The notes under the pieces were generated by a model, which saw nothing but the letters and a program-made list of their open reading frames with translations, had not been told where the DNA came from and did no database searches. The translations under genes were made by a program, and so were the position numbers. This document shows positions 16,246 to 56,311 of a stretch of DNA of 64,000 nt, piece by piece (the first letter of the stretch is position 1; each line of letters opens with the position of its first letter). Location: the NCBI GenBank assembly GCA_017471285.1, contig JAFUUZ010000054.1, positions 94,975-158,974 of the forward strand, in the 5' to 3' direction. Source of the stretch: Paludibacteraceae bacterium. GTDB taxonomy: Bacteria > Bacteroidota > Bacteroidia > Bacteroidales > Paludibacteraceae.

Positions 16246-17706
16246 TTAGTCCTTCGGACTCCAGAAGAAGTCGGTTAGCCATCTCGGCAGCCGGCTTTTT
16301 TTCGGTCCATCATTAGGCGACGCAGTCGCATCATTAAGCTGCGTAGCAGCATCATTGGCAAGCTTGCTTGCATCATTCCCATATAGCGCCCTCTGCAGCC
16401 GGTCTTTGCCCGCGCCGAAACGGACACCTACTGCTGCCTGTACTTTCCAGTTCCAGTTGCTGAGTTTGATATAGTTGTCGTTAGCAGTCCAGCCGGAGCG
16501 GAAGCGTATGTTCTCCGCTGTTGCCCAGGCATTCAGATGCACCCATTTGTTGATCTCCCAGCTCACTGCTGCGCGCATGTTACCCGTCACATGCACCGGA
16601 TAAGACGGATTGAGATTGTACATCGGGTCGTCCGGCAGACCTTCCGCTATGCTGTCCGGCAGATAGAAAGACGCTAAATTGACCGTGTAGGTCACTAACA
16701 TAGCGGCTGCGGAGGCGTGCAAGACTACTTTGCCTTTGTTGGGGGTATAGTTGATGCCGTAGCCTATACCTACTGCTATCTGACGCGTACGGATGGCGGT
16801 CAGGTTGGACATCAGCAGCGGTAGCAGAGGCACGTTGTTGTCTGTGTATCGCAGTGTGTCTTTCAACTGCACCTGACTGGATGTATATGCCAGATGAAGC
16901 AGAAACGAACCCGCTGTCTGTTTCTGTATATACGATTGTTTGACGGCTGCCTGGTGGGAGTAATGACGCGCGTTCAGCGCATACCATATGTTCAGGCTCG
17001 CATTGGTGATGGTAACCTTATCTTTGCCGAAATCCCAACTCTGCTGGTCGCCAAATTGCAAGTTCGTGTGGATATTGGTGCTGGTATGGATACCGAAATC
17101 GATGCCGATGAACTTGCTCCCGAACGAGAAAGAGAGACGTTGTGCGTAGGCATGGATAGCGTCCCAACTGTAGCCGAAACCGAACCCGCGGTAGCCGGCG
17201 TAGAAACCCAGATCGACGGAAGGAGTCGTCTTGTTCAGCAGCGTAACGGTCTGAACGCTATTGTCCAGCGCCTCGGAGAAGGATGTCAGGTTGGAGTTGA
17301 CGCCAATCATGCCGTTGGTGTAGGCTATCCGCCAGCTGTGTTCCGGCAGACCGATATACGAAGTGTCTATCCCCCGCTGGAGATACCGGTCCACCCAGTT
17401 GCCGGTGCGGTAGAAGAACAGCAGCGCCTTGTTCGGCTTCTTCTCCGGCTTGGCAGGCTTGTCCGTTTCTAGTTTACCTAGTGTATCTAGTTTACCTAGT
17501 GTGTATAGTGTATCTGGTTCGCCCGGTGTTTCCTGTTTTGCCGGTGTATCCGGCTTAGCCGGCTGTCCAAGTGTATCCGGTATGTCCGGTGTAGCCGGGG
17601 CAAGCTGTTCCCCCTCTCCTGAGGAGAGGGTCGGGGTGAGGTTATTCCCTAACGCCCAAACGCTTACCGCCGCCAGTAATGCTACTATGAAGTATAACCG
17701 TTTCAT
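16246..17706 (-). CDS. Outer-membrane barrel protein, DUF4421-like
   Basis: 486 residues. The signal peptide (MKRLYFIVALLAAVSVWA) is followed by a Pro/Asp/Thr-rich linker (about 22-95) that is largely made of repeat DNA: a hairpin element encodes NLTPTLSSGEGEQL, and CTAG-rich repeats encode DTLGKLDTLGKLE. A barrel follows (about 105-430) with WVDRYLQRGIDTSYIGLPEHSWRI, GYRGFGFGYSW and the closing WNWKVQAAVGVRFG, which resembles the DUF4421 family from memory. The last 45 residues contain an NDA repeat encoded by a 21-bp palindrome array (16308-16377). The promoter is at 17869-17899, about 155 nt upstream, behind another repeat element. Function unknown; the envelope location is well supported, the family name less so. 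Confidence 0.7.
   Translation of the reverse strand: MKRLYFIVALLAAVSVWALGNNLTPTLSSGEGEQLAPATPDIPDTLGQPAKPDTPAKQETPGEPDTLYTLGKLDTLGKLETDKPAKPEKKPNKALLFFYRTGNWVDRYLQRGIDTSYIGLPEHSWRIAYTNGMIGVNSNLTSFSEALDNSVQTVTLLNKTTPSVDLGFYAGYRGFGFGYSWDAIHAYAQRLSFSFGSKFIGIDFGIHTSTNIHTNLQFGDQQSWDFGKDKVTITNASLNIWYALNARHYSHQAAVKQSYIQKQTAGSFLLHLAYTSSQVQLKDTLRYTDNNVPLLPLLMSNLTAIRTRQIAVGIGYGINYTPNKGKVVLHASAAAMLVTYTVNLASFYLPDSIAEGLPDDPMYNLNPSYPVHVTGNMRAAVSWEINKWVHLNAWATAENIRFRSGWTANDNYIKLSNWNWKVQAAVGVRFGAGKDRLQRALYGNDASKLANDAATQLNDATASPNDGPKKSRLPRWLTDFFWSPKD
16308..16377. repeat. Array of CATCATT words and mini-hairpins, exact 21-bp period
   Basis: CATCATT occurs at 16308, 16329, 16350 and 16371. Between the copies lie three different palindromes: GCGAC-GCA-GTCGC, GCTGC-GTA-GCAGC and GCAAGC-TT-GCTTGC. 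The 21-bp step keeps the reading frame of the host gene. Confidence 0.9.
17469..17530. repeat. CTAG short tandem repeat inside coding sequence
   Basis: TAGTTTACC and TAGTGTATC units alternate with a 9-bp period and encode DTLGKLDTLGKLE in the linker of the DUF4421-like protein. The same type continues at 17718-17746, outside the gene. Confidence 0.8.
17612..17641. repeat. Hairpin plus GTCGGGGTGAGG element (copy B), in frame
   Basis: CCCTCTCC-TGA-GGAGAGGG followed by TCGGGGTGAGG. It lies in frame just after the signal-peptide codons of the minus-strand barrel gene. Confidence 0.8.
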
Positions 17707-17745
17707 GTTTGTCCGGATTCTCTAGTTAGTCTAGTTTATCTATTT

Positions 17746-17852
17746 GGGGCCCCCGGAGTAAACCAAGCCCTCTGGGCTGTTTGCTATGGGGAGAGCGGAG
17801 GCAGGAGTTGCCTTGTCAATTTAGCGGAGCGGTATTGACCGCCGCAATCTCC
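17746..17852. repeat. GGGGCCCCCGG-type palindromic element (copy 1)
   Basis: Starts ATTTGGGGCCCCCGG, contains AGCCC-TCT-GGGCT, then TGGGGAGAGCGG, and ends with a TAGCGGAGCGG...GACCGCCGC palindrome. It sits in the untranslated leader of the minus-strand gene. Copy 2 at 42058-42175 has the same position relative to potA. Confidence 0.7.
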
Positions 17853-17868
17853 TTGCCGAACGCGAGTG

Positions 17869-17899
17869 CAAAATTACTACTTTTTTCGCAAATACGCAA
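17869..17899 (-). promoter_or_regulatory. Bacteroidetes promoter, minus strand
   Basis: Reading the minus strand, TTG (17899-17897) is 20 bp from TAATTTTG (17876-17869). It drives the gene that starts at 17706. Confidence 0.82.
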
Positions 17900-17929
17900 A
17901 TTATTTTGCACGCAAGCATGATTTGTCCG

Positions 17930-18130
17930 GTCGATAACCACTCACCACCGACTCGGCAACGCGACCATCACGGGATCACCCTAGGACGACGTCGGCCTCA
18001 CGTCTGCCCCACGCCGGCATAATATCTGCTGAATAACATAATTATGGCTGTTTTGCAAACTGAATATAGCAGAAATGGCGAAAATTCGTCAAAAAGTGTT
18101 GATTTTTACACACACGTGTCGTAGAAATGT
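17930..18130. other. Spacer with a GC-rich block and no visible gene
   Basis: Bases about 17935-18020 are much richer in G and C than both flanks, with no long frame and no tRNA or rRNA signature on either strand. Bases 18021-18130 are AT-rich. I see no further structure. Confidence 0.5.
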
Positions 18131-18132
18131 TG

Positions 18133-18140
18133 TAATTTTG
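18133..18140 (+). promoter_or_regulatory. Possible second promoter box
   Basis: TAATTTTG followed by CACCC matches the -7 box, but there is no TTG at the expected distance. A 6-bp hairpin (18212-18229, AGCCCT / AGGGCT) follows. If used, it would give a leader or small RNA of about 200 nt ahead of the toxin gene. Confidence 0.35.
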
Positions 18141-18312
18141 CACCCAGTTTTATATTTATATAAATAGAAAAGCCCACAAGTCCATTTATTATTAGGAAAT
18201 ACACAATATATAGCCCTTGTCTCAGGGCTCAAAAACCGAGGCAAACGATCTTTGACATATTGTACTTCTATTGAGAAAATGCATTTTTTTCAACGAAAAA
18301 GTGGAGAAAAGC

Positions 18313-18343
18313 TTGCGTATGTGAAAAATTTGTTGTAATTTTG
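18313..18343 (+). promoter_or_regulatory. Bacteroidetes promoter for the toxin-antitoxin pair
   Basis: TTG (18313-18315), 20 bp, then TAATTTTG (18336-18343). The start codon at 18371 is about 20 nt past the predicted transcription start. Confidence 0.85.
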
Positions 18344-18370
18344 CAGCAGATTTCAAAAGAAAGCAAGTTT

Positions 18371-18736
18371 ATGATAGCCACATTAGCTGAAATACAGAAG
18401 TTCTTAAACGATTTTCACCAGAAAGTAGAGGTGTTCGACATCTTCTTTATGGATGACCGAGAGAAGAACTTAAGTGCCATTGACGATTTGGGCATTATCC
18501 GTGGTGTGCGTAAGGAGGTAATTAAATCACTTACTGTGGATGATTATTCCGAAGGACCCATTAAGAACATTCTCAATGCTTGGGGCGACTTATGGGTATT
18601 CGGGAAAGATGTGGAAGGCAAGGAAGTGTATATCAAAATCAGTTACGGTATGCCTAACCGTCGAGCCATCTGTATCTCATTCCATTTGGCTGAATATCCA
18701 ATGAATTATCCGTATAAGAAAGGAGGTAAATCATGA
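18371..18736 (+). CDS. MqsR-like toxin
   Basis: 121 residues from ATG 18371; a longer frame from TTG 18341 would begin inside the promoter box, so I reject it. The second half follows the MqsR fold order: LGIIRGVRKEVIKSLTVDDY, then LWVFGKDVEGKEVYIKISYG, then AICISFHLAE, matching helix and beta strands of MqsR/YgiU ribosome-dependent mRNA interferases. At 121 residues it is somewhat longer than E. coli MqsR (98), with an extra N-terminal helix and a YPYKKGGKS tail. Its stop overlaps the next start (ATGA), and that gene encodes an MqsA-like antitoxin; this order and coupling support the assignment. The island is more AT-rich than its flanks, which suggests acquisition. Family-level call from remembered motifs. 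Confidence 0.65.
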   Translation: MIATLAEIQKFLNDFHQKVEVFDIFFMDDREKNLSAIDDLGIIRGVRKEVIKSLTVDDYSEGPIKNILNAWGDLWVFGKDVEGKEVYIKISYGMPNRRAICISFHLAEYPMNYPYKKGGKS

Positions 18737-19278
18737 TGAAACAAGTAATAGATAGTCCTTTTAGCGAGGGGAAAGCGCACCTGCAACGTCAGATGAAAAC
18801 CATGGAGTATCGCGGTGAAATGTACACCTATGAGCATGTCAATTATCGATGTGATGAAACAGGGTTGGAATTCACCACCGACGATATGGATTTTGATAAC
18901 CTTGAGCGGGTTTATGTGCAGTATCGCGCGAAATATAATATCCCTTCACCTGCAGAGTTGACGCAAATGCGAGAGCGATATGGGTTGTCGGCAATTAAGA
19001 TGGCGCAGATTCTTGGATTGGGAGTGAATCAGTATTCCAAGTATGAGCAAGGTGAGATGCCGAGTGAGTCTATTGGTAAGATGCTACGTTCTATCCAGAC
19101 ACCGGCAGTGTTTATGGAGTATATTGGGGATGCCAAGAACCAATTCAGTGAAGAGGAATACAAAAAGATATGTGCGAAAGTGCAGAAGTCGTTCTTGAAG
19201 ATTATCAAGTCGAAGCCTGACTTGTCCTGGTACTGGGAATTGTTTTCTCCGCGTGCATTAGGTCGCGTAGCTTTGTAG
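18733..19278 (+). CDS. MqsA-like antitoxin with Xre-type HTH
   Basis: 181 residues. AGGAGG (18721-18726) precedes the ATG by 6 nt, one of the few strong Shine-Dalgarno sites here, and the ATG overlaps the toxin stop. The N-terminal part (about 1-65) has one clear Cys (YRCDETGLEF), so the classic four-Cys zinc site of MqsA is not complete. The HTH lies at about 73-125: LTQMRERYGLSAIKMAQILGL then YSKYEQGEMPS and IGKMLRSIQTP, the MqsA/YgiT pattern. The tail (about 130-181) is unassigned. It should neutralise the upstream toxin and repress their shared promoter. A related alternative is a general Xre-family antitoxin. Confidence 0.68.
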   Translation: MMKQVIDSPFSEGKAHLQRQMKTMEYRGEMYTYEHVNYRCDETGLEFTTDDMDFDNLERVYVQYRAKYNIPSPAELTQMRERYGLSAIKMAQILGLGVNQYSKYEQGEMPSESIGKMLRSIQTPAVFMEYIGDAKNQFSEEEYKKICAKVQKSFLKIIKSKPDLSWYWELFSPRALGRVAL

Positions 19279-19304
19279 CACTTGCATGACATCATTTTCT
19301 CAGT

Positions 19305-19330
19305 AGGAGCAACGGTTTTCCGTCGCTCCT
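19305..19330 (+). terminator. Hairpin after the toxin-antitoxin pair
   Basis: An 11-bp stem with one mismatch (AGGAGCAACGG / CCGTCGCTCCT) and a TTTT loop, 27 nt after the antitoxin stop. The T tail is weak (ATTTGTG). Confidence 0.55.
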
Positions 19331-19411
19331 ATTTGTGTATGGAGGTACATGATTGTCAATACTTTTTGTTAATACCCAAATAAGACTTTTGTAAGGGTTT
19401 AGTAACATTAC

Positions 19412-19471
19412 CGTCGGATCCCATCCGACACCCAAAAAACATCGTCCATTACGTCGGATCCCATCCGACAC
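19412..19471. repeat. Two copies of a perfect palindrome spaced 40 bp
   Basis: GTCGGAT-CCC-ATCCGAC occurs at 19413-19429 and 19453-19469, each followed by ACACC and preceded by TTAC(C). Both are 3-nt-loop mini-hairpins. They end 34 bp before the start of the giant surface protein, so they could also be operators. Confidence 0.85.
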
Positions 19472-19504
19472 CAACAATAGAATAACATAAAAACACAAAA
19501 TATC

Positions 19505-22500
19505 ATGACACACTTTAACTTAAATCGAATGCTGCAGGGATGCAGCGCGTTTATCCAAACGATGGCCGGCAATCGAGCGGCACGGAACGATGCAAAAAGG
19601 GTCAATAACCACGTATTGCCCCTTACTTGCCTCTTACTTGCCTCCTCGTTGCGCCTTACTTGCCCCTTACAACTCCGTCGCATTGCGCTTATCTTGTGCG
19701 TTTTAGTGCTGAGTGTTGGACAGATATGGGCGGTAGATCCTCCTGCTGCGAATTTTACAGTTACTCCAACATTGGTGTCTGGCGCAACATATGAAGCTAC
19801 AGGACTGTCTATTGCTGGATCCGATAAAGGATTATGGGTTGAGGTACCATCTGCCTCTGCAGAAGGATTCATAAGCATTTATGGTGATAATAATGCGGAT
19901 AGGTACTATTACATATATGGCTCTAATGGAACGGTAAAGGATACAGGACGAGGGATAAAAATGGTTAAAACTGTATATGCGCCGCCTGTATATTTTTCTC
20001 CGAGCGATATCTATACTACTGGCGGCAAATATTATCTTGTTTTTTATACTACAAATGACTTCAAAGCAAGCAAAGTGCAGTATACCCTTTGTTCTAAGAC
20101 GAAAGTTACAACATCCAGTTTCTATCCTTTGTACGCAAACACAAGTAAGACAGCTGCTCAGTTAAAATCGGCAGCTGGATTTCCTGCGAATATAGTATTG
20201 AATATTGATGCCGTTGGAAATTCAAATTCTCATTCTAGTACGGTAGAGACTCCTCATGATTTCAAATCTAATATTAGTACAGCAACCACCTACTATTACA
20301 TAACTCCTAATGCCGTTACTCAAAATATATTCCTTGGTATGTTAGCGAATGTTAAATCTATTCGTTTGTACGGAGACGGAAAAGGGGGAGGTAGAACTTT
20401 TTATATCACAGTAACTAAAGTGTCTGGGGATGGTTCTCCAATGACAGTCTCCAATATCACGACAACGAATACAGCAACTATTAAAGAATGGTCAACAGGA
20501 GACTTAACTGCTTTGACGGGATATGACGCAGATACTTATTACACATATACTATTACTTATGGAGGTAATGATGCGCGTCTTTGGGGAATATATGTAGAAG
20601 CAGGTGCAGCTTCCGGCTGTTCGTCATATTCTTTCCATTATGGCAATGATGGAGCACCGGCGGCAGAGTGGACAACGGAGTGCTTCGTTGCGAAAGGTGA
20701 TGATCATGAGATGCAGATAGAGGATTTTACGATACCTTCAAAGACTCATTTCTATGTAGGCAAGAACGGCTCATTTAGTGGCACGTCCGGCAATGCATCT
20801 GATGCCAACTCTGTAACATCACTCTGGTCTGCTATGTATTTCGCTACATCAATCGGTGATGGAACAGGTACTCGTCCTATGGTAGGTCAAGCAACAGGTG
20901 CTACCGGAACAATTCGTATTTACGATAACTCTACGTGGAATAACAAACAGGCCGCATTCATTCCTGATGGGTACAAACTGAAAGTAGGCAGTACGGAATA
21001 TGCAATGGCAGTTCATGGTGGCAACGAGTACCGTTCGGATATTGTGGAGATGAGTAGTTCTAATGCCCGTGACCTTGTTAGTGTTGGTATAACGAATAAT
21101 TCTGGTAATTATGTAGGTACGGCTAACTCGGAGGGAATGCAGCATATCTTCTTAAATACAGGCGGTACGACCTATTGGAGCAAAGACGGCGTAAATAATT
21201 TCGGATTGTATGATATAACTAATAGTCGTTTTGCTTGCCTGATGACCAAAGTTCCGGGAGAGGACTATTTGTATGAAGGATGGGTGCCGGAAAATTGCAC
21301 AAAGGTAATCTTTGTGCGCTTAAAGAGCTCTACACTTGCTTGGGGAGATGGTAATAGTAATGTACATAATAAAACAGGGGATTTAAGTTTACTTGCCGAT
21401 AACAACTTGTTTACTATCAGTAGTTGGTCCGATGGTTCTTGGTCTGCATACGAGAAGAAAGGTAAGTTCCGCATGAATGCAGACTGGACGGACAAGAACT
21501 GGTACGTACGTTTCTATCCGTACCACGTTCTTCATTATGATGCCAACGGTGGCACTGGAGAACCGGCAGATCAATCGGTTGCTGCAGATGCAAGTCCTTG
21601 TCAATTGACCGTTTCTTCGACAGAGCCGACAAGAACGGATTATGTTTTCCAAGGATGGAATCCGACGAAAGCGACAGCAGATGCAGGTACCATAGATGGT
21701 GCTTGGGATCCGGGCGATACACATACTATGACCGGCGATGTGACGCTCTATGCTGTATGGGAGGCATGTAGCGGACCAACAATCAGCGCTAATGATCGAA
21801 CCGGCATTGTAGATGGAGCGCATGAGGTAGGAGATGAATTGGGAACAGCTTCTGTAACAGCTACCGCTGGAAACGGAGGGACATTGAGTTATAAATGGTA
21901 TTATTATGATGATAGCCCCGGCAAGCCGGTAGATCCCAATGATTATACTGCTGCGCCTGGGACAAATAATCAGGCGACATACCAGATTCCAAGTAGCTCA
22001 ACATGTACCGCTCGTCACTATTTCTGCGTAGTTAGCGAAGAAGGATGCTCAACAACAGTGGAGGGTATACCAACCGGTGCTTTGACATTGACGGAGCCGG
22101 TTGACCCATGTTCCGAGCCGGCGGAAGTGACAAACGAGATTGCACGTTTCTTCGTACCGTGCGGATTGAGTAATGCAACAAGTGGAGATCCATCTGCGTG
22201 GGAAGTAACTCAAGATGCTTCAACCGAAGACAATACATTTACTACAAACGACTTCGGTGGAAGCGGTACTAATTGGTATAGAAATGAGACATCTGGACTT
22301 ATTTATGGAAAACTGACTGGTAATAGCGGTTATATACAACTGAAGCTTAAGTCCGGTAGTTTCCAGGCTGGTGATGTGGTAACTGCATATTTCAATGCGA
22401 ATAATGGTACCAAAACAGGATTAAAATTGAAATCAACAGAAGGAAATGGAAATGAACCTTCTGCAACAGCGAAAGAAGTAGAAACAAGTAGTACTTATAC

Positions 22501-34009: not shown

Positions 34010-36926
34010 CTTCTGCCTCCTCCTTTTCTACGGGTTGTTCGATCTTGTCCAGTTCGGCGAGTCGTGCGCTGATGAGCGCAGGGATATCGTCGTCTTTCAC
34101 CAAATAGTTCTGTTGCAGGACGAGCAGATACTGCCTTGCCTGGAAATACTCGCCGCGGCTGCGGTTGATATCGCTCAGGAGCACCAATGCGCGCGCCAGC
34201 CAGTATTGCTGCTGGGTGTTCATCTGGGTGAACTCCATCACCTGGGCTTCCGCGTTCTCCATGTCTCCGGCTTCGTAATAACTCTGCGCCAGCAGGTACT
34301 TGGACTCCGCGCCTTGCGCCGTACGCACTTCCTTGGCTAATGCCCGCAGGTCCGGCTGGGCTTTGCTCCATTGGCGGAGAGCGATATAGGCTTTCGCTCT
34401 GCCGTACATCGCTTCAGCCTCGGTCTCGTCGCTTACCGGCGTGTCGCTCAGCAGTTGCTCTGCAACGTCGATAGCCGCCTGGTGGCGGCCCAGTTGCTGC
34501 GAGCAGCGCAGGATACCCAGACGGGCGATAGTGGTGTTCTCGCGGGTGGAAGCAAGGGCATGCATGCGGTAGAATCCGTCCAGCGCACCTTTCCAGTCGC
34601 CTTTGTCATAGCATATCTCCGCTACGCGCATGGCTGCCTCTTCCTGATACGGGTTGGCGTTCATCTCCGCCAGCACCGAATACTGACCCAGCGCCTCCGT
34701 CGTCTTGCCCAGACGGTAATACGAATCCGCCAGATAATAGCGCGCGGTAGTGCAGTAGCGTCCGCCGGCGCAGTACTGTGTGATATAGTTGCTCAGACTC
34801 ACCGTCGCCTTCTGGTACGCCGCTTGCATATACTGCATCTCGGCGGCTGCATACAGCAGCGAATCCTCTGCTGTGGTGACGTTCATGTTCATCTTCGCCA
34901 GGTTCTTCGAGTACGCCAGATATTCATCCACATTGCCGCTCTCGATATACAGTGCCTGAAGGGCGTCCAGAGCGGTGTAGGCCTCTTCCGTAGCCGGATA
35001 TTTCTCTATCGTCTGGCGGTAGGCGGCTATAGCCTGGTCGTTCTGCCCCAGGTTACGGAAGAGCATGGCGCGCTCCAATGAAGCCTTACGGGCCAGCGTG
35101 GAGTGGGGATAACCGCCCAGCAGCTGCTCGTAGGTGATGATAGCGCTCCGCTCGTCCTCTTGCTGCAACTGGGCACGCGCGATCTCATACACGCCGTCGT
35201 CCGCATAGTCGGATTTGGGATAGCGTTTCACCAGGTCGCGCAGCACACTGATCTTCTCGCTGTATTTATGCTGCAAGCCGAGGGCATAGCCTTTCTGGAA
35301 TAGCGCATAGTCCGTTCCGGCAGCCTGCAGGTTCGCTACCTGCGAGTAATAAGAGATAGCCTGCGGGAACTGGCGGGCATTGAAATAGCAGTCACCTATG
35401 CGGTTGAGTGCGTCCGCGTAAGTAGGCTCGGTAGCCAGAGCCGCATCGATATACATGGAGAAAGCGTTCTGCGCCTTGTTATACTGCTTCTGCGAGAAGA
35501 AGGCATAACCTTGCAGATATCGCGCAATGGAGTAGTTCGCCGATCCTTTGACGCCGGGACGGCTGAAGAAGGTGTTGAGGTCCGACTCGCAGGCGGTGTA
35601 GTTGCGCAGACGGTAGTTCGCCTCCGCACGCACATAATAAGCCTCCGTCGTGTATTCCGAACTCTCCGCGTCATGCTTGATCAATTCCGTCATCCAGTCC
35701 ACAGACTGCTGCATCTTGCCTTGCAGGAAATTGTCAGCGCCTAACTGGTAGCGCAGATATTGCTTGGTCTGCAGCATCTTCGGCGTAGGCGAAGGGATCG
35801 AGTCCAGCGTCTGGATGGCGGCGGCGTAGTTCTTGCTCTGCATCAGCGCATCCGAGAGCAACTGGTATATCCGTCCTTCGTATTTGGAATCCGGGTATTG
35901 AGACAGAAAATCATTGAATGCCCGTACGGACTCGCCCAGGGCGCTTGAACTCTGGTAGGTGCAGAGCGTGTAGTTGTACGCCGCCTCTTCCGCTACGGCA
36001 GGAGTGATCTTGTACCCCGCTGCGGCCTGGTACGACAACTTCGCCTGCTCCGGCTGGCCGAGTTGCACATAGGCGTTGCCCAGCGTCAGACAGGCGGCCT
36101 CCGAGATGGAGTCGCGCTCCTGTTTGACCTGCTTGAGCGATCCCACGGCGGCTTCATACTGTCCCAACCGGTACTGAGCCGTTCCGAGCATGAACATGTC
36201 ATTCCGCAACGGCTCCTCTTTGTTCTCCGCAGCCGATTTCTGGTAGATGTTCAGGTGCTCCACCGCGCTGTTGTAGTCCTTCTTGAGAAAACTCATCTCG
36301 CCCAGTATGCGGTGCAGCTCGCCGTTATTCAGGTTCTCCGGATGTTCGCGAAGCAGTGCGGTGGCTCTCGACTCCGCCTCTTCGTAATCACCCGTCGCGT
36401 AGTATATCTGCGTCAGGTAATAAGGGACGGTCTTGGCGTACTGAGGGTCGTCCTCCAGAGACTTCAGGGCAGGAAGCGCCTTCTCATACCGCTCCAGCTT
36501 GTACATGCAGTAGGCGTAGTAATAGGTGCCGCGGGTCGTATAACGGCTGTTCCCCTTGCCCAACTGGCTGAAATAGATAGAGGCACGCTGGTACTCCTGC
36601 ATCATCAGATAGGCATATCCGCGGTAAAAAGCGTAGTCTGTCTGATGATCGCGGCTCAAAGCCTTCGGATCTACCGGCTCCAGTATCTTCAACCCTTGTT
36701 TGTAATGCCCTTTCTCTACCTGTAGCACACCCTGCATGAAATGCACCTCGTCCTGAAACGTGGTGTACGGGTACGCCTGCAGATAGCTCTTGAGGTCGCG
36801 CTGAAGCATCTTGTCACGTCCGTCGAAACGCTCGGCTAACGCGTTATAGCGCGTCTCCATCTCCGTCGTCTGGGCGGAGAGAGGGGCAAAAAAGAATACA
36901 GAGAACAGAATACAGAGTACAGACAT
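33999..36926 (-). CDS. Large periplasmic TPR protein
   Basis: 975 residues from ATG 36926, selected because MSVLCILFSVFFFAPLSAQ is a good signal peptide; the longer frame from 37010 starts inside the upstream potD gene and reads through repeat DNA. The rest is helical tetratricopeptide repeats throughout (for example YAFYRGYAYLMMQEYQRASIYFSQLGKG, ALNRIGDCYFNARQFPQAISYYSQV, AIAAYRQTIEKYPATEEAY), ending in an acidic tail (EEAEDEE). TPR proteins of this size bind other proteins; the tight overlap with the barrel gene suggests that they form an outer-membrane complex. The 56-nt upstream spacer is made of repeat DNA. Possibly part of the pot operon transcript, since no promoter is evident in between. 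Confidence 0.82.
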   Translation of the reverse strand: MSVLCILFSVFFFAPLSAQTTEMETRYNALAERFDGRDKMLQRDLKSYLQAYPYTTFQDEVHFMQGVLQVEKGHYKQGLKILEPVDPKALSRDHQTDYAFYRGYAYLMMQEYQRASIYFSQLGKGNSRYTTRGTYYYAYCMYKLERYEKALPALKSLEDDPQYAKTVPYYLTQIYYATGDYEEAESRATALLREHPENLNNGELHRILGEMSFLKKDYNSAVEHLNIYQKSAAENKEEPLRNDMFMLGTAQYRLGQYEAAVGSLKQVKQERDSISEAACLTLGNAYVQLGQPEQAKLSYQAAAGYKITPAVAEEAAYNYTLCTYQSSSALGESVRAFNDFLSQYPDSKYEGRIYQLLSDALMQSKNYAAAIQTLDSIPSPTPKMLQTKQYLRYQLGADNFLQGKMQQSVDWMTELIKHDAESSEYTTEAYYVRAEANYRLRNYTACESDLNTFFSRPGVKGSANYSIARYLQGYAFFSQKQYNKAQNAFSMYIDAALATEPTYADALNRIGDCYFNARQFPQAISYYSQVANLQAAGTDYALFQKGYALGLQHKYSEKISVLRDLVKRYPKSDYADDGVYEIARAQLQQEDERSAIITYEQLLGGYPHSTLARKASLERAMLFRNLGQNDQAIAAYRQTIEKYPATEEAYTALDALQALYIESGNVDEYLAYSKNLAKMNMNVTTAEDSLLYAAAEMQYMQAAYQKATVSLSNYITQYCAGGRYCTTARYYLADSYYRLGKTTEALGQYSVLAEMNANPYQEEAAMRVAEICYDKGDWKGALDGFYRMHALASTRENTTIARLGILRCSQQLGRHQAAIDVAEQLLSDTPVSDETEAEAMYGRAKAYIALRQWSKAQPDLRALAKEVRTAQGAESKYLLAQSYYEAGDMENAEAQVMEFTQMNTQQQYWLARALVLLSDINRSRGEYFQARQYLLVLQQNYLVKDDDIPALISARLAELDKIEQPVEKEEAEDEE

Positions 36927-36980
36927 AATTAGTCTGTGTTCTGTCAGCGCAGTGGTCTGTATTCTGTCAGCGAAGCGGTC
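36890..36980. repeat. Mixed short tandem repeat and GCGAAGC mini-hairpin word
   Basis: AATACAGAG / AACAG units encode the TPR signal peptide, then TCTGTCAGCGCAGTGGTCTG and TCTGTCAGCGAAGCGGTCT follow upstream. CAGCGAAGCGGTC also occurs twice in pepD (53167, 53183) and at 56216. Confidence 0.85.
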
Positions 36981-42057: not shown

Positions 42058-42175
42058 ATTGGGGTCCCCGATGTGTGCGTAGCACGCAGTGGGGAAAGCG
42101 TAGCACAAGGCGAGATTCATAGGAGCGGTTTCCGCGACTCGTAGCGAGCCTTAGTGTAAGCGCCGTACTCCGAAT
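42058..42175. repeat. GGGGTCCCCG-type palindromic element (copy 2)
   Basis: Starts ATTGGGGTCCCCG, then GTGC-GTA-GCAC (42075-42085), TGGGGAAAGCG, GCGG-TTT-CCGC (42125-42135) and CTCG-TAG-CGAG (42138-42148). Same outline as 17746-17852 with different stems; it lies in the potA leader. Confidence 0.7.
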
Positions 42176-42442: not shown

Positions 42443-42507
42443 GCGACCTCTGGTCGCAGCAATCGCGCTTGCGCGAAGCAATTATCAATCGGCACAGCCG
42501 AAGCAAT
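42443..42507. repeat. AGCAAT words alternating with mini-hairpins
   Basis: GCGACC-TCT-GGTCGC, AGCAAT, CGCGC-TT-GCGCG, AAGCAAT, TATCAATC, CGGC-ACA-GCCG, AAGCAAT. Same plan as the CATCATT array at 16308. Confidence 0.82.
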
Positions 42508-42984: not shown

Positions 42985-43016
42985 TTTGCACAAATAGAAA
43001 AAATGTACTATCTTTG
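42985..43016 (+). promoter_or_regulatory. Bacteroidetes promoter for the rod-like RNA or leader
   Basis: TTTG (42985-42988), 20 bp, TATCTTTG (43009-43016). Predicted start near 43021; the next gene begins 364 nt later. Confidence 0.8.
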
Positions 43017-43020
43017 CACC

Positions 43021-43240
43021 GTCATTTGAGAATGACCGCTGGCTCCGACAGCGTAAAAAAGCGGTGACATATTGATTTTATTCGCGTTTGCGATTTATTG
43101 GGCACTCTAGAATGTAGGAAGTTCAGAAGATATACCAATAATAAGTCACAAACGTCCATATTGTATATGGGCGTGACTTATCGGTATATGGGCAATTCCT
43201 ACAGCCTTAGAGTGGATAAGGAAGCGCTCATATTTTTTTG
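43021..43240 (+). ncRNA. Putative structured RNA with a 112-nt rod-like hairpin
   Basis: From 43103 to 43214 the sequence folds into one long rod of five stacked stems: 103-110 with 207-214, 113-120 with 196-203 (TGTAGGAA / TTCCTACA), 130-136 with 183-189 (ATATACC / GGTATAT), 142-149 with 173-180 (TAAGTCAC / GTGACTTA), and 154-161 with 165-172 closing a 3-nt loop (offsets from 43000). Internal loops separate the stems. A run of seven Ts at 43232-43238 could end the transcript. A promoter sits just upstream. The rod with internal bulges is reminiscent of 6S RNA, but I cannot confirm a family; it may instead be a long 5' leader of the gene at 43385. Confidence 0.6.
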
Positions 43241-43384
43241 TGTTTCTTTTCATATCTCGCAGACGGCTCCATAGAGAACCGTCACTCTCCAAACGGGGCA
43301 AGAGCAGCAAAGCCGAAAGAGCTGTAACTTAAGTCTTTATCTAAAAACCGATGCTCGATGGGATATAAGTGAGCAAAAGAAACA

Positions 43385-44092
43385 ATGAAAAAGCTATTAC
43401 TCATGGCTATGTTGGTTGTAGCAAGTCTTGTGGCTGCGCAAGATGTTATCATCACCAATGACTCTCGGAAAATTGATGCCCAAATCATTGAAGTGTCGCA
43501 GACAGAAGTTAAGTACAAGGAGAAAAGCAATCCGAATGGTCCTACTTTTGTTCTCAATACAAAGGACATCAACTCAATTATCTATGCCAATGGAAGTGTC
43601 AGCACATTTACACATACACAAACTAATCAAGCAGGAGCACAACAGTATGGCGGTTCTTATCAAGCAAATAGCCAATTACAGCCGGGTTCTTATATTACTA
43701 GAACAGGAAAAACATACTTCTATAATGGAAAGAGCATGAGCGAAACCGAGTATTTAGGGTTTGTCCAAAACAATTGTTTTGAGGCATGGCAGAGTTACCA
43801 GCAAGGACAGAAACTATGGAAAACCGGATGGACACTATTTGGAGTAGGAATGGGAAGTGTTGTATTGGGAGCAGCCTTTTGTTGGGCTCCCTACAGCGTT
43901 ATTTATTCATCAATTCTTATCGGTGCCGGAGGTGGTATGGTTATTGGTAGTGTGCCCTGTCTTGCAATCGGAAGCGTAAGAAAGAATAATTCTCATGAAA
44001 TATTCAATGAGCAATGTGCAAGACGTGCTGTGGCTCTGGAATTTGGTATCCAAGCATCACAGAATGGAATAGGTTTGGCTATGAAATTCTAA
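43385..44092 (+). CDS. Secreted or membrane protein of unknown function
   Basis: 235 residues. Signal peptide MKKLLLMAMLVVASLVAA, then a small beta domain (about 19-70, DVIITNDSRKIDAQIIEVSQTEVKYKE, FVLNTKDINSIIYANG) that I recall as common at the start of Bacteroidetes envelope proteins, a Gln/Ser/Tyr-rich linker (about 72-105), a short TGKTYFYNGKSMSETEYLGFV part and two hydrophobic segments (about 146-168 and 172-195, rich in Gly). The DNA is AT-rich compared with neighbours. Its own promoter is not obvious; it may be transcribed from 43009 through the structured RNA. Terminator follows. No function assigned. Confidence 0.72.
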   Translation: MKKLLLMAMLVVASLVAAQDVIITNDSRKIDAQIIEVSQTEVKYKEKSNPNGPTFVLNTKDINSIIYANGSVSTFTHTQTNQAGAQQYGGSYQANSQLQPGSYITRTGKTYFYNGKSMSETEYLGFVQNNCFEAWQSYQQGQKLWKTGWTLFGVGMGSVVLGAAFCWAPYSVIYSSILIGAGGGMVIGSVPCLAIGSVRKNNSHEIFNEQCARRAVALEFGIQASQNGIGLAMKF

Positions 44093-44117
44093 TCTAACAT
44101 AACACTAACTATTCTGC

Positions 44118-44144
44118 GCCCGAGCTAATCACTCGGGCTTTTTT
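44118..44144 (+). terminator. Hairpin terminator
   Basis: GCCCGAG / CTCGGGC stem with a 7-nt loop followed by TTTTTT. Confidence 0.88.
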
Positions 44145-44373
44145 ATGCACAAAAAAGAACGCACTTTACATTCCTACTTCCAACTTGTTCCCTTTTTAAA
44201 CGTTGTTCCCTTTTGTCGCATTATTGCGGCAACCACCTCTCTTCTCTCTCCCTTTCGGGTGCATTTTTGCGCCTCTCCCTCTCACTCTCACTCTCACCAA
44301 TATATCAGTGTGAGACTAATCCAATTTTTGGCGTCGTAAAATATACATTTTTTGTGTAAAAAAACGCGCGCAC
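44145..44373. other. Pyrimidine-rich spacer, no gene
   Basis: C and T rich, with CTCTCACTCTCACTCTCACC and CTCTCTCC runs near 44235-44300, a short tandem repeat. No credible frame on either strand. Confidence 0.6.
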
Positions 44374-46854: not shown

Positions 46855-48447
46855 ATGACTAAGGATAAGCAACCCGATTATATTTTCGAAACCTCCTGGG
46901 AGGTTTGCAACCGCGTAGGCGGTATCTATGCCGTGCTATCCACACGTGCTGCATCGATGCAGGCGGAGCACCCGGATAAAGTGTTTTTCTTCGGCCCCGG
47001 TTTCGGAGCACATAGTGATATCTATTTCAAGGAAGACAAGTCCCTTCTCAAGAAATGGCTTTCTTCTTTCGACTTTGAGCAAAGCGGTCTTTCTTCTGTC
47101 CGTATAGGTCGCTGGAAAGTGCCGGGAGAGCCGATTGCTATTCTCTTGAAATTCGACAGCCTGTGGCAGCGGAAGGATGAGATATACGGATGGGCTTGGT
47201 CCAAATTCCGGGTCCAGAGCCACGCCGCTTATGGCGATTATGACGAGTCATGCCTCTTCGGTTACGCTGCCGGCATCGTCATGGAGAACCTCTATCATTA
47301 TCTAACCGGCGAAGCCCAAACAGCGAAGCGTTCAAACCGTCAAACCGTCAAACAGCAGGCGCAGCCTGCGGTCTGTATGCACGCCAATGAGTGGCAGACG
47401 GCGTTCGCTATCTTCTATCTGCAGGACCACTGCCCGGAGATAGCTACGCTCTTCACGACTCATGCCACCGGTATAGGACGGTCTATCGCCGGAAACGGAA
47501 AACCGCTGTATGACTATTTCGAGGGCTATAACGGAGATCAGATGGCGGAGGAACTGAACATGGTTTCCAAACACTCGGTCGAGAAACAAGCCGCGCACTG
47601 GGCGGATTGCTTCACTACCGTCAGTGATATCACGGCGCGTGAGTGTGCGCAATTACTCGATAAACCCGTTGATATCGTTACTCCAAACGGATTTGAACCT
47701 ACCTTTGTGCCAAAAGGCAAAGCCTTTGACCAGAAACGCAAAGAAGCACGCGAAGCGTTGCTACGCGTAGCAGGAGAGAAACTGGGCGGAGTAGTGCCGC
47801 AAAACGCATTGCTCGTCGCTATCTCTGGACGGCAGGAATGGAAAAACAAAGGTATCGATGTCTTTGCGGCGGCGCTGGACAAACTGGCGCAAAAGATATA
47901 TCATTCCGATCAGCCCGAGAAAGAAGTGGTGGCATTTGTGATGATTCCGTACCTCGACCGGGCGCCTGCCCGCAAAGGCAAAGTGTCTGCCGTCTTCGTA
48001 CCGTATTATCTGGATGGACACGACCCGCTTTTCGGTAAAACCTACTACGATCTGCTCATCGGAATGGATGTCACCGTTTTCCCGTCTTATTACGAACCTT
48101 GGGGTTACACACCGTTGGAGTCCTGCGCCTTCCATGTACCGACGATCACTACTTCGCTTGCAGGATTCGGAGCATGGGCTGCACAGCAAAAAGACCAATA
48201 TGGCGTAGTAGTGATCGAACGGAATGACTCCAATTTTGACCAGGTGGCGGAACAAATTGCTACAGATCTCCTGCGATTCGACCGTCTTTGCGGGGAAGAT
48301 AAAGCCCGCGCACGTCAAGAAGCGGCGGCGGTAGCGAAAAAAGCAGACTGGAAGCATTTCTTCAAGTACTACCGCAAAGCATATGAGATAGCACTGAAAA
48401 AAAGAGATAACAGAATAGAAGAACTTCAAAACCCACGTTTATTATGA
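46855..48447 (+). CDS. GT3-type glycogen synthase, with repeat-derived insertion
   Basis: 530 residues. The start FETSWEVCNRVGGIYAVLSTRA and later YGDYDESCLFGYAAG, FTTHATGIGRSIAGN, TVSDITARECAQLL, TPNGFEP and PSYYEPWGYTPLESCAF are the motifs of the eukaryote-like GT3 glycogen synthase used by many Bacteroidetes; the E-x7-E pair in YEPWGYTPLE is visible. It should build alpha-1,4-glucan from a nucleotide-glucose. Between the helix LYHYLTG and the conserved segment VCMHANEWQT lie about 22 residues (EAQTAKRSNRQTVKQQAQPA) encoded by mini-hairpins and a CAAACCGT repeat (47308-47376), right beside the active-site region. Stop overlaps the next start (ATGA). Confidence 0.88.
   Translation: MTKDKQPDYIFETSWEVCNRVGGIYAVLSTRAASMQAEHPDKVFFFGPGFGAHSDIYFKEDKSLLKKWLSSFDFEQSGLSSVRIGRWKVPGEPIAILLKFDSLWQRKDEIYGWAWSKFRVQSHAAYGDYDESCLFGYAAGIVMENLYHYLTGEAQTAKRSNRQTVKQQAQPAVCMHANEWQTAFAIFYLQDHCPEIATLFTTHATGIGRSIAGNGKPLYDYFEGYNGDQMAEELNMVSKHSVEKQAAHWADCFTTVSDITARECAQLLDKPVDIVTPNGFEPTFVPKGKAFDQKRKEAREALLRVAGEKLGGVVPQNALLVAISGRQEWKNKGIDVFAAALDKLAQKIYHSDQPEKEVVAFVMIPYLDRAPARKGKVSAVFVPYYLDGHDPLFGKTYYDLLIGMDVTVFPSYYEPWGYTPLESCAFHVPTITTSLAGFGAWAAQQKDQYGVVVIERNDSNFDQVAEQIATDLLRFDRLCGEDKARARQEAAAVAKKADWKHFFKYYRKAYEIALKKRDNRIEELQNPRLL
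47308..47376. repeat. Mini-hairpin and CAAACCGT insertion in glycogen synthase
   Basis: GGC-GAA-GCC, GC-GAA-GC, then TTCAAACCGTCAAACCGTCAAAC, then GCAGGC-GCA-GCCTGC and GGTCTG. In frame with the gene. Confidence 0.82.
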
Positions 48448-51131: not shown

Positions 51132-52529
51132 TTGAGTTTTGAAATACTAAAATCTTATATTCCTTATTACAAGCGCAACCTGAAAGTGGCGTTGCCTGTA
51201 ATGTTTACCCAACTGGGTGCGGCAATGGTCGGCTTGGCGGATAGCATCATGGTGGGGCATTACAGCACGGCGGACCTGGCGGCTGTCAGTTTCTCCAATG
51301 CGATCTTCTTTACCGTCATGGTCTTCGCCATGGGGGCGTTGATGGGGGTCACGCCGCTGGTGGGACATGTCCATGGACGGCTGGAGAAATTGTTGCAGCA
51401 AGGCACTACAGAAGAAGAGATCAACCATAAGCATGAGCAAATAACATCCTATCTGCTTAACGGACTGGTGTTTACGGCGATTATGTGTTTCTTCGCGCTG
51501 GTGTTGTTGGCTCCCTGTATTCCTTATCTGGACGCTTTCGGTCAGGAACCCGAGGTTATCGCGTGTGCGCGCCCGTACTATATTTTAATAGTACTGTCGA
51601 TCATCCCGTTCTTGCTCTTCTGTTTCTTCAAGCAATACCTGGAGGGACTCGGCAATACGATGGTCGCGATGGGAATTACCTTGGGATGCAATCTGCTGAA
51701 TATCTTGCTGAACTGGGTCTTTATCTTCGGCCATTGGGGTTTTGAGCCGATGGGTGCTGAAGGAGCAGGGTGGGCTACTCTCATCGCACGCTTCCTGATG
51801 CCGGTATGTTTCCTGGTGGCGATGATGGCGAAAGCCGACTGGAGGCGGTATCTCGTTTCTGCTCGCAGATGGCTGGTTACGCGCAGGGAAGTGGAGCACT
51901 TGTTGGCGATCGGCGCTCCTATAGGATTGCAGTCCTTTGCGGAAGCATTCCTCTTTACGGCTTCGTTCGTGATAGTAGGATGGATCAGTAAGGAAGCGCT
52001 GGCGGCGCACCATATAGCGAATCAGATGTGCGATCTGACGTTTATGTTGGCACAGGGTATCGGAGCCGCTACTACTATCCGTGTCTCGCACCAACTGGGG
52101 AAAGGGGACCTGAATGCCGTACGCATGGCGAGCCGTGCTTCCATCCATCTGTGCCTGCTGATGAACACCATCGGCGCGTCAATCATGTTCTTTTTCCGGT
52201 ATCAGATACCGTATATCTTCTCCGACGACCCGCAGGTGGCAGAGATTGCTTCTACGCTGCTGATCTTCGGCGCGTTGTTCCAATACGCGGACGGACTCCA
52301 GTGTATAGGAGCGGCAATGCTGCGTGGCATCCAGGATGTGCGCGTGCCGATGCGGATTGCGCTCTTTGCGTACATCGGTGTCGCCCTGCCTTTAGGGCTA
52401 TACTTGACTTTCCCTGCGGATCTCGGTGCCAAAGGTATGTGGATGGCTTTTGTAATAGCACTCGTTATTCCGGCTGTACTCTTCCATATACGGTTCCGTA
52501 GACAACTGAAGAAAATGACCAAATTGTAA
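51132..52529 (+). CDS. MATE family efflux transporter
   Basis: 465 residues with about 12 hydrophobic segments. TTG 51132 is the only start in frame before the conserved first helix (LKVALPVMFTQLGAAMVGLADSIMVGHYS, a MATE signature); an in-frame stop lies 15 nt upstream. The second half repeats the pattern (APIGLQSFAEAFLFTASFVIVGWISKEALAAHHIANQM). It exports cationic drugs or metabolites by Na+ or H+ antiport; the substrate cannot be judged. pepD follows after 8 to 38 nt. Confidence 0.93.
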   Translation: MSFEILKSYIPYYKRNLKVALPVMFTQLGAAMVGLADSIMVGHYSTADLAAVSFSNAIFFTVMVFAMGALMGVTPLVGHVHGRLEKLLQQGTTEEEINHKHEQITSYLLNGLVFTAIMCFFALVLLAPCIPYLDAFGQEPEVIACARPYYILIVLSIIPFLLFCFFKQYLEGLGNTMVAMGITLGCNLLNILLNWVFIFGHWGFEPMGAEGAGWATLIARFLMPVCFLVAMMAKADWRRYLVSARRWLVTRREVEHLLAIGAPIGLQSFAEAFLFTASFVIVGWISKEALAAHHIANQMCDLTFMLAQGIGAATTIRVSHQLGKGDLNAVRMASRASIHLCLLMNTIGASIMFFFRYQIPYIFSDDPQVAEIASTLLIFGALFQYADGLQCIGAAMLRGIQDVRVPMRIALFAYIGVALPLGLYLTFPADLGAKGMWMAFVIALVIPAVLFHIRFRRQLKKMTKL

Positions 52530-52580
52530 ATGATAAAATGGTAAATGATAAAATGGTAAATGACAAAATGACTAAATGTG
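52520..52580. repeat. Short tandem repeat, AAATGGTAAATGATA type, spanning the pepD start
   Basis: AAATGGTAAATGATA-like 15-bp units, two to three full copies plus decayed ones. They supply three alternative ATG starts (52538, 52553, 52568) 15 bp apart, all in frame. Similar units occur inside the C69 gene. Confidence 0.88.
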
Positions 52581-54094
52581 AAAATGTATTTGAGATCTTT
52601 TCTCAAATATGTCGTGTTCCCCGTCCTTCCAAACACGAAGAAAGGATCAGTCAGTGGTTGCAGGATTTTGCTGCATCACACGGCATAGAGTGTGTCACCG
52701 ACGAAGCGATGAACGTGATTATGCGCGTACCTGCTACGCCCGGTTATGAGGACCACGAAGGAATCATCCTTCAAGCCCATATGGATATGGTATGCGAGAA
52801 AAACGGCGATGTTGTCCATGATTTTATGACCGATCCGATAGAGACCTATGTGGATGGCGAGTGGCTCAAAGCCAAAGGAACCACCCTTGGCGCCGATAAC
52901 GGTATCGGAATCTCTATGGCGCTTGCTGCTATCACGGATCCGGAGCTGCAGCATCCGGCTATCGAGTGCCTCTTCACCGTCGATGAAGAGACCGGTCTCA
53001 CCGGTGCTATGAAACTGCAAGACGGTATGCTCAGGCATAAACGCCTCATCAACCTCGATTCGGAGGATGATGGCCAAATCTTCATCGGCTGCGCAGGAGG
53101 CATCGACACCCTCGCCAAAATGCACTATACCCCTATATCGCTCTGTCAGCCCAAAGGGCGGTCTGTCAGCGAAGCGGTCTGTCAGCGAAGCGGTCTGTCA
53201 GGCGAAGCCGGTCTAATAGCCATCCGACTTTCAGTCGGTGGCTTATTGGGTGGTCACTCCGGCGATGATATCAACAAAGGACGTGCGAACGCTAACCAGC
53301 TCATCGTCTGGTTCCTCGCGCGTATAATGCCGCAGACCGACCTGCAACTCGCATCCATCAACGGCGGCAACCTCCGCAACGCTATTGCACGCGAAGCGGA
53401 AGCGGTCATCGCTGTTCCTATGGCGTATAAAGAGCAGATCCGTATTGAATGGAACCATTTCGTGGCGCAGATGGAAGGTGTTTTTGGCGAAGTGGAGAAA
53501 GATATGCGGATGGAACTGGAGACATGCGACATGCCCGACTTTTTCATTCCGGCGGACAAGGCGTGCAGGCTCATCATGGCGCTTTGCGAGTGTCCGCATG
53601 GCATGATCGCTATGAGCCGCGACATCCCCGGACTCGTCGAGACTTCCACCAACCTTGCCTCCATCAAAATGTATGAAGACACCTCTCTCCCTTGTAGGGA
53701 GAGCCGGAGAGGGGTTGTCGAGGTCAATACGTCGCAAAGGTCTTCCGTCGAATCTTCCAAACACCACCTCAAATGGGTCGTGGAGCAGGCGCTCGCTATG
53801 GCGTGCGACGAGGTGACACACGGCGACGGATACCCCGGATGGGCGCCTAACCCCCATTCGCAACTCTTGGAGACGGTCAAAAAAGCATATATGGATCTGT
53901 ATCATTCAGAGCCGAAAGTGCTGGCTATACATGCCGGACTGGAGTGCGGACTCTTCCTGGAGAAATATCCGTACCTTGACATGGTGTCTATCGGACCGCA
54001 GATGTACGGAGTCCACTCGCCACAGGAGCGGCTCTCTATACCTTCTACGGAGAGGTGCTACGCATGGCTGTGCCAAGTGCTGAAAACGTTATAA
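52538..54094 (+). CDS. pepD: Aminoacyl-histidine dipeptidase (M20), with repeat-derived insertions
   Basis: 518 residues from the first ATG in the repeat (52568 would remove 10). M20 di-zinc residues are all visible: QAHMDMVCEKN, LGADNGIG, DEETGLTGA, LDSEDDG and HAGLECGLF; also GGHSGDDINKGRANANQL and TSQRSS. It hydrolyses dipeptides such as X-His in the cytoplasm. Two stretches have no counterpart in E. coli PepD as I recall it: about 25 residues (LCQPKGRSVSEAVCQRSGLSG) encoded by the GGTCTGTCA hairpin array at 53141-53249, between the first lobe and GGHSG, and about 12 residues (TSLPCRESRRGVV) encoded by a hairpin element at 53682-53716. The frame is kept through both. Confidence 0.92.
   Translation: MVNDKMVNDKMTKCENVFEIFSQICRVPRPSKHEERISQWLQDFAASHGIECVTDEAMNVIMRVPATPGYEDHEGIILQAHMDMVCEKNGDVVHDFMTDPIETYVDGEWLKAKGTTLGADNGIGISMALAAITDPELQHPAIECLFTVDEETGLTGAMKLQDGMLRHKRLINLDSEDDGQIFIGCAGGIDTLAKMHYTPISLCQPKGRSVSEAVCQRSGLSGEAGLIAIRLSVGGLLGGHSGDDINKGRANANQLIVWFLARIMPQTDLQLASINGGNLRNAIAREAEAVIAVPMAYKEQIRIEWNHFVAQMEGVFGEVEKDMRMELETCDMPDFFIPADKACRLIMALCECPHGMIAMSRDIPGLVETSTNLASIKMYEDTSLPCRESRRGVVEVNTSQRSSVESSKHHLKWVVEQALAMACDEVTHGDGYPGWAPNPHSQLLETVKKAYMDLYHSEPKVLAIHAGLECGLFLEKYPYLDMVSIGPQMYGVHSPQERLSIPSTERCYAWLCQVLKTL
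53141..53249. repeat. GGTCTGTCA word array with mini-hairpins inside pepD
   Basis: Word/hairpin order: CTCTGTCA, GCCC-AAA-GGGC, GGTCTGTCA, GC-GAA-GC, GGTCTGTCA, GC-GAA-GC, GGTCTGTCA, GGC-GAA-GCC, GGTCTAATA, then a longer palindrome containing CCGACT-TTC-AGTCGG. The last palindrome runs into conserved codons. Confidence 0.9.
53682..53716. repeat. Hairpin element in frame in pepD
   Basis: CTCTCCCT-TGT-AGGGAGAG followed by CCGGAGAGGGG. Resembles the elements at 16213 and 17612 (a G/C-rich hairpin with a G-rich tail). Confidence 0.82.
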
Positions 54095-55833: not shown

Positions 55834-55864
55834 CCTCTACCCTGTTTTACACTCGGCATACACG

Positions 55865-55918
55865 CCGGGCATTCACTCCTTCCCTGCTTTTCCGGGCATT
55901 CACTCCTTCCCTGCTTTT
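55865..55918. repeat. 27-bp direct repeat, two copies
   Basis: CCGGGCATTCACTCCTTCCC plus TGCTTTT at 55865-55891 is repeated at 55892-55918 with no spacer. The end of copy 2 forms the terminator stem. Confidence 0.9.
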
Positions 55919-55938
55919 CAGGGCAGGGGATTTTTTTT
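55909..55938 (+). terminator. Hairpin terminator
   Basis: CCCTGC / GCAGGG stem followed by GA and eight Ts. Confidence 0.78.
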
Positions 55939-56054
55939 GTATGATTTTCCTCCCCCAAGGGACTTGGTAAATGAAAAAACAGTCATTACCTTCATTTTGT
56001 CCGTTTTTCGGAATATTTGTCCGATTATTCATTATGGGTATGAAAAAAAAGCAG

Positions 56055-56062
56055 TACTTTTG
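56055..56062 (+). promoter_or_regulatory. -7 box for the Ig-like secreted protein
   Basis: TACTTTTG within GCAGTACTTTTGCACC. A leader of about 240 nt follows before ATG 56312. It contains a GGCGGA / TCCGCC hairpin (56080-56108), the word CAGCGAAGCGGTCTG (56216-56230) and ACTGAAC repeats. Confidence 0.7.
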
Positions 56063-56311
56063 CACCCGAAATATCCTTCCGGCGGAATGAGAGGAGTTCC
56101 CTCCGCCGAGGATGGACAATAGAAAATAACCGTTGTGATTTAGCCTTCAATCCCGACGGTCAAAGCTAACGCTATAGGAACGCAAAACCTCCCGGACCTT
56201 CCGGATTCCCCGGAACAGCGAAGCGGTCTGGAACTACTGAACACTGAAAAACTCTTTTATAATTAACCGAGGGGCAACCCTCACAATATTAACATTCAAA
56301 TCTCTAACATT

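Follow-up and report, generated by a model that had tools for sequence, protein, structure and literature searches.

The window analysed here is a 64,000-nt stretch of DNA from a Paludibacteraceae bacterium (contig JAFUUZ010000054.1, positions 94,975 to 158,974), in which short hairpins and recurring words lie in spacers and, as a preliminary description had noted, in frame within genes, namely in the linkers of a PepD-like peptidase and a glycogen synthase-like gene and in a DUF4421 gene (Table 1). All of the strings cited in that description were found at, or a few bases from, the positions it gave, and the array near 36900-36980 was missing from its list. The hairpins are real, with counts above those of shuffled sequence, but they comprise several different things; the loci split into elements resembling repetitive extragenic palindromes (REPs), structured elements of about 120 nt, linker words, a CTCTCC element and unchanging arrays, so the single mechanism proposed earlier for all of them is not supported. 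We consider it probable that the loci are copies of several very short dispersed repeat families belonging to one genus of rumen and gut Paludibacteraceae, an explanation that we grade as a whole, including the movement of one family (family A) by REP-associated tyrosine transposases (RAYTs) and the slippage and overwriting of linker words.

The window's genome is metagenome-derived (1.55 Mb, completeness 54.7%), and its nearest named relatives are Paludibacteraceae or Bacteroidales metagenome-assembled genomes from the rumen and gut. UBA3653 (locus L076, genome G061) was the closest relative found, with 92% identity across 11.6 kb, and was therefore the first genome against which gain and loss were tested. 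No paper describing such repeats in Paludibacteraceae was found in a literature search that had most subscription journals outside its reach.

Table 1 Repeat features of the window and the genes that carry them
Feature	Position	Strand	Basis or context
CATCATT words with three variable hairpins, 21-nt spacing	16308..16377	-	in frame near 3' end of DUF4421 gene 16246-17706
CCCTCTCC-TGA-GGAGAGGG hairpin inside DUF4421 gene	17612..17630	.	in G061, one base changed
Family B structured element, copy 1, variable hairpin at 17766	17744..17868	+	dispersed; absent in G061; covariation
Family A REP-like palindrome GTCGGAT-CCC-ATCCGAC	19413..19429	+	string search, exact-stem count
Family A REP-like palindrome, CGTCCATTAC directly before	19453..19469	+	string search, exact-stem count
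GAATACAGAG words and GGTCTGTCA/GCGNAGC array	36900..36980	-	genes 33999-37010 and 36983-38275; other word in G061
Second GGGGTCCCC element, hairpins 42075-42148	42060..42165	+	dispersed; absent in G061; outside covariation alignment
Three hairpins joined by AGCAAT, spacer	42443..42507	+	
Glycogen synthase-like gene	46855..48447	+	
Hairpin words in glycogen synthase linker	47304..47370	+	filled differently in 14 relatives read
AAATGGTAAATGA words spanning PepD start	52512..52580	+	
PepD-like M20 peptidase gene	52538..54094	+	M20 family
PepD linker 1, GGTCTGTCA and GCGAAGC words	53140..53222	+	
CCGACT-TTC-AGTCGG hairpin, conserved strand after linker 1	53224..53238	+	
PepD linker 2, CTCTCCC hairpin	53683..53714	+	GGTCTGTCA word at this site in G061
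CAGCGAAGCGGTCTG word, spacer	56214..56232	+	kept in G061

Family A has a layout in which the word GTCC[N]TT is followed by a few bases and then by GTCGGAT-NNN-ATCCGAC. A search for this exact stem with any loop gave 67 places, spread over 18 of the 38 genomes of the genus (own genome included), compared with 0 for the reversed control; within the own genome, the two palindromes of the window are the only exact copies. A looser pattern, consisting of the word and GGATNNNATCC, was present in 72 of 121 genomes. The palindrome thus recurs within the genome and among its relatives, as REPs do. The loop is filled by many different triplets while its length of 3 holds within the family, and the stems change with compensation because variant sites gain complementary outer pairs: among 18 sites (16 regions) picked for unusual stems from the looser-pattern matches listed, 9 carried three or more additional complementary outer pairs (stem at least 7; chance 1/64 each) and 14 one or more (stem at least 5). 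The 3-nt loop of the earlier proposal is thus kept in family A; other RAYT-linked hairpins have stems of 8 bp and loops of 4 nt.

A search for Y1 transposases gave a locus of one relative, L246/L328, in which a 330-aa HUH gene is followed directly 3' by four family A-type hairpins and contains a related hairpin in frame. Similar hairpins accompany the genes of L332, L333 and others, so that palindromes flank or lie inside tyrosine HUH transposase genes, as in REP/RAYT systems. A profile built from 15 such proteins, in which HxH and Y..NP.R are invariant, recovered RAYT relatives in 18 of 18 genomes searched, including two genes of the own genome. Hairpins (stem at least 7, loop 3 or 4) occurred within 25 ORFs (open reading frames) of the 30 RAYT loci read, totalling 38 in 32.4 kb, compared with 18 of 120 control frames and 20 hairpins in 133.4 kb; the controls were open frames of 300-450 aa taken in each of the six frames and may include some that are not genes. 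The rate is thus 1.17 versus 0.15 per kb, about 8 times higher, with neither the RAYT genes nor the paired species compared below being independent draws. The position of these internal hairpins is also concentrated, with 21 of the 38 falling at +353 to +503. We infer that the single-strand activity of RAYTs, namely RAYT-type cutting and joining, probably moves family A. No RAYT was seen among the window genes that were scanned, which were not all of them. A Y1 transposase as universal driver, judged by Pfam alone, was rejected, with only 16 of 38 genomes giving a match at E <= 0.001 and 12 of 38 one above the cut-off. At another locus (L312, genome G069), 17 TTGTCCC..GGGACAA hairpins with 4-nt loops flank one RAYT-like gene at distances of up to 700 nt, and another lies inside the gene in frame. 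The gene upstream of one of the own RAYT-like genes (L241) is judged from its sequence to be a putative restriction-modification methylase.

Family A is REP-like with an unusual foot sequence, and it is placed with the known REP kind because REP insertions inside Bacteroidetes TnpAREP genes have already been reported. Insertions of REPs inside the transposase gene are described for the Bacteroidetes subclass 2.4 and atypical flanking hairpins for subclass 2.6 (PMC6006769). The present system resembles these in that short palindromes are scattered around genes for HUH tyrosine transposases. However, GTCC[N]TT is in most cases followed here by a foot such as TTAC, TTAG or TTGC, whereas the known foot is GT[AG]G (PMC6006769). 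Moreover, the RAYT-like ORFs read here are 254-454 aa long, and most have a long part outside the Y1 domain. REPs tagged with CGTC are a further point of comparison, with CGTC at the foot, a stem of 8-9, a loop of 4-5 and a tail that is mostly CCA, and their survey reports no RAYT flanked by CGTC units (PMC3733652). Family A shares with them the CGTC near the palindrome and the intragenic copies, but it is not a member, since its stem is 7, its loop is 3 and its CGTC is separated from the foot by about 6 nt, and its copies lie 3' of a RAYT-like gene at L246. Thus, a palindrome with a nearby CGTC does stand beside a RAYT-like gene here, where the survey reports no transposase for CGTC-tagged palindromes (PMC3733652), although the element types differ. 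These observations bear on which DNA the RAYT-like proteins of Bacteroidetes, whose genes themselves contain hairpins, actually mobilize.

The two elements of about 110-125 nt in the window that begin with GGGGTCCCC are likewise dispersed, and both are missing from the matching sites in G061. Gain or loss between close relatives, as predicted earlier, was therefore observed for these two loci, while the CATCATT array, the hairpin inside the DUF4421 gene and the CAGCGAAGCGGTCTG word are kept in G061. For family B, 20 stretches with copies were fetched, and 22 copies were found in relatives (L210, L237, L255-L274). An RNAalifold analysis of 17 aligned copies, made up of 16 of the 22 (near-duplicates left out) and window positions 17747-17872, predicted 31 pairs, 14 of which have two-sided compensation, and the hairpin noted earlier at 17766 corresponds to the variable inner hairpin of the fold. 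Family B is thus an element with a conserved fold that is present or absent between relatives. The second window element is judged to be a distant relative of family B, as its start and layout look alike by eye. Rfam covariance models gave no gathering match in the window, with some sub-threshold matches only, and in 10 loci with family B copies the sole match at E <= 0.5 was to a neighbouring tRNA. One copy (L267) lies directly upstream of a tRNA, and L268, L273 and L274 look alike by eye. The core AGCGNAGCGG is common to the apical loop of family B, which is conserved, and to the GGTCTGTCA word (53149-53213), a coincidence which hints at a link between the element classes. Overall, the claim that stems change while the hairpin is kept is borne out by half of the chosen family A sites and by the compensated pairs of family B, that is, for only part of the loci. 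Such compensation, together with some family A copies that by eye lie shortly upstream of start codons, is what would be expected if the hairpins were kept for a function as RNA or as protein-binding sites, but presence or absence between close relatives and the way in which words are freely swapped at coding linkers argue against it, and we regard such a function as highly improbable.

What surprised us most is that words are interchanged at a single linker among dozens of species. In PepD linker 1, the own genome carries GGTCTGTCA and GCGAAGC where G061 has an AAATGGT word, and in linker 2, the own CTCTCCC hairpin stands against a GGTCTGTCA array in G061. The linker was read in 81 species, and a gene tree was built without it from 79 of the 81 loci (L151 and L155 dropped). 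A classed word was found in 61 of these 79; of the 18 species without one, 4 belong to the ingroup clade and 14 to outer branches. The words carry hardly any phylogenetic signal, because the classed words require 41 changes on the tree compared with a mean of 44.4 (38-48) in 300 label shuffles. Different words at the same spot in related species point to a fast rewriting process, and a housekeeping-enzyme linker that differs by a whole word between largely intact flanks offers a natural assay of how short repeats spread.

One source of such words could be homologous recombination between species, in which conserved flanks bring in ready-made linkers. The near absence of phylogenetic signal would fit this, as would the raised-divergence blocks around the PepD gene between the own genome and G061. 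In 19 close pairs with different words, taken from the tree and with some sharing a species, mean identity downstream of the linker is.82/.90/.85 (near to far), and the fall to.82 within the 60 nt nearest the linker agrees with recombination. However, the upstream flanks show no such drop (.91/.90/.92, far to near), and recombination leaves the origin of the words and their recurrence within a genome unexplained; as a full account it is unlikely. The recurrence itself was measured in 66 species (own genome, 13 outgroup loci and L151 left out), in which 10-mers of the linker reappear in the DNA flanking the same locus at 4.95 per 10 kb versus 1.56 in other species, a value that exceeds all 10,000 permutations (maximum 3.56).

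The linker of the glycogen synthase-like gene behaves similarly, ranging from short (L184, L192) to six repeats (L190), as read in 14 of 17 loci (L178, L180 and L191 lacked an anchor). Exact 8-mers recur at a spacing of 7 nt at 85-151 per 100 kb compared with 9.6 in order-level outgroups, 9-16 times more often, although the two ingroup rows of this count overlap in genomes with each other and with the ingroup hairpin sample described below (e.g. L056/L079); further peaks lie at 14, 15, 21 and 11 nt. Moreover, 23 indels of at least 9 nt separate the own genome from G061 in collinear blocks (outside 1-5965, 10038-11791, 17746-28216 and 41989-44318), 14 of them coding and 9 non-coding by our own choice of ORFs. 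Net multiples of three account for 12 of the 14 coding indels, and the other two lie in one linker and sum to -6, compared with 1 of 9 non-coding indels. Rickettsia palindromic elements are palindromic DNA that lies in frame within genes, a likeness to the present case, in which however the units are 7-21 nt long and many unrelated words occupy a site.

The dominant 7-nt spacing, and the units of 7, 14 and 22 nt gained or lost between the own genome and G061, would both be produced by local slippage and drift, if each linker grew a tandem word for itself and nothing were copied from one locus to another. This alone seems quite unlikely, since linker words are commoner in their own genome than in others and since an identical, complex 16-nt word, TGTCAGCGNAGCGGTCTG, was counted at 91 places spread over 11 of the 38 genomes, compared with 0 for the reversed control. 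The latter count also agrees with the earlier claim of shared flanking words, which are a stronger signal than the small hairpins. We therefore favor slippage combined with ectopic copying: linker words would arise through slippage, mostly in 7-nt units, and would be replaced through short ectopic copying from arrays at other sites of the genome or through recombination between species, while selection would ask only for frame and for what the linker tolerates. A dedicated process, possibly the single-strand activity of HUH transposases, that rewrites tolerated linkers from a genus-wide repertoire of words is an unlikely alternative reading of the same pattern; it would leave the linker with different words in almost every close pair of species. 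No linker word was tied to any RAYT, though the profile found RAYTs in all genomes searched.

Tandem units of 7 nt at many loci, the mark of heptameric tandem repeats, are present here; short tandemly repeated repetitive sequences and small dispersed repeats are grouped with such repeats for this comparison. The heptameric repeats of cyanobacteria and others share the 7-nt period, the many loci and the variable unit number (PMC4692102, PMC4679880), whereas the words described here often lie in frame in linkers of housekeeping genes and vary in identity between close species. Our data thus bear on why 7-nt repeats dominate in bacteria, for which a polymerase-contact idea has been reported (PMC4679880).

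Several findings weigh against the explanation by dispersed families, RAYT movement and overwritten linkers. The genomes compared are, going by their titles, metagenome assemblies. For family A, the GTAG/GTGG tetranucleotide is absent from the foot, the looser pattern has one match in its reversed control, and neither of the two own RAYT-like genes is flanked by family A. Three RAYT-like proteins scored 28.5, 38.8 and 41.8 bits against the NCBIfam RAYT model NF047646, all below its cut-off of 80, and the same three scored 20.1, 25.3 and 22.8 bits against PF01797 (cut-off 23), one passing. In addition, a stem core common to internal and flanking hairpins was found in only 5 of the 16 RAYT loci that have both. 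For the linkers, no enzyme was tied to the words, the 17 word classes are hand-written patterns made after looking, and most of these classes are heptamer-like without a hairpin. Lastly, 28 of the 66 species (about 10 kb available each) showed no recurrence of linker 10-mers, and recurrence was above the mean of other species in only 29.

The preliminary description had also proposed a general rule of 3-nt loops, which our counts do not support. Perfect hairpins with a stem of at least 5 and a loop of 3 number 98 in the window compared with 62.5 +- 6.9 in 30 dinucleotide shuffles, but loops of 4 (110 vs 65.4), 13 (98 vs 62.0) and 2 (96 vs 63.3) reach equal enrichment, so that loop 3 is not special, and specificity for it in the window as a whole was rejected. 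Two of the cited hairpins, GCAAGC-TT-GCTTGC and TCGCGC-TT-GCGCGA, have 2-nt loops themselves. The shuffled control thus upheld the excess of hairpins but not its confinement to 3-nt loops. Larger samples comprised 353 kb of the own genome, 0.86 Mb of relatives (ingroup, partly redundant, as some contigs are present twice) and order-level outgroups. For stems of at least 7, the own genome gave 46 vs 23.7 at loop 3 and 62 vs 24.7 at loop 4 (6 local shuffles), whereas the outgroups gave 39 vs 44.8 at loop 3, with no excess, and 65 vs 42.3 at loop 4, about 1.5-fold. Short perfect hairpins are in excess at most loop lengths in the own sample and in relatives and less so in the outgroups; the excess of short perfect palindromes is therefore a clade-level feature across many loop lengths. 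The striking features are consequently the words and this general excess of palindromes rather than the three-base loop, as the loop-3 excess is matched by other loop lengths. Triloops of the form C(GNA)G with stems of at least 5 were about three-fold enriched in the own genome (16 vs 5.5), with 40 vs 14.7 in the ingroup, which includes the doubled contigs, and 7 vs 4.0 in the outgroup, while the control triloop C(ANG)G was not enriched in the own genome (3 vs 4.2). GCGAAGC is known as an unusually stable DNA mini-hairpin; its stem (2 bp) and that of CCCAAAGGG (3 bp) are too small to be judged singly.

Intrastrand template switching is a mechanism that makes hairpins, and perfect short ones arising de novo in this way would contribute to a clade-level palindrome excess. 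Immediately downstream of the PepD linker, the coding strand, though conserved, holds hairpins that differ by species (CCGACTTTCAGTCGG, AAACTGAAAGTTT, CTCGCAG..CTGCGAG; seen at window 53224-53238, in L092 and L155, and in L078, L079 and L082), which could likewise reflect template switching. Nevertheless, most linker word classes have no hairpin and the excess is broad in loop length, and we hold template switching to be very unlikely as the explanation of the loci.

Among the remaining arrays, the CATCATT array is identical in G061, and the AGCAAT-joined hairpins had no relative among the loci searched. Relative to the own genome, G061 shows tandem gains at 56152 and 55906, with units of 11 nt (CCGACGGTCAA) and about 27 nt. 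A 3297-aa ORF occupies 19505-29398, and its part from 19553 to 28216 was unmatched in BLAST blocks against the G061 stretch, both ends aligning. Finally, CTAG-rich words lie in spacers and in the DUF4421 gene (6221-6290, 17476-17523, 29893, 30500, 32063 and 61440-61475), and at 6221, 17476 and 61440 the own sequence differs from that of G061.

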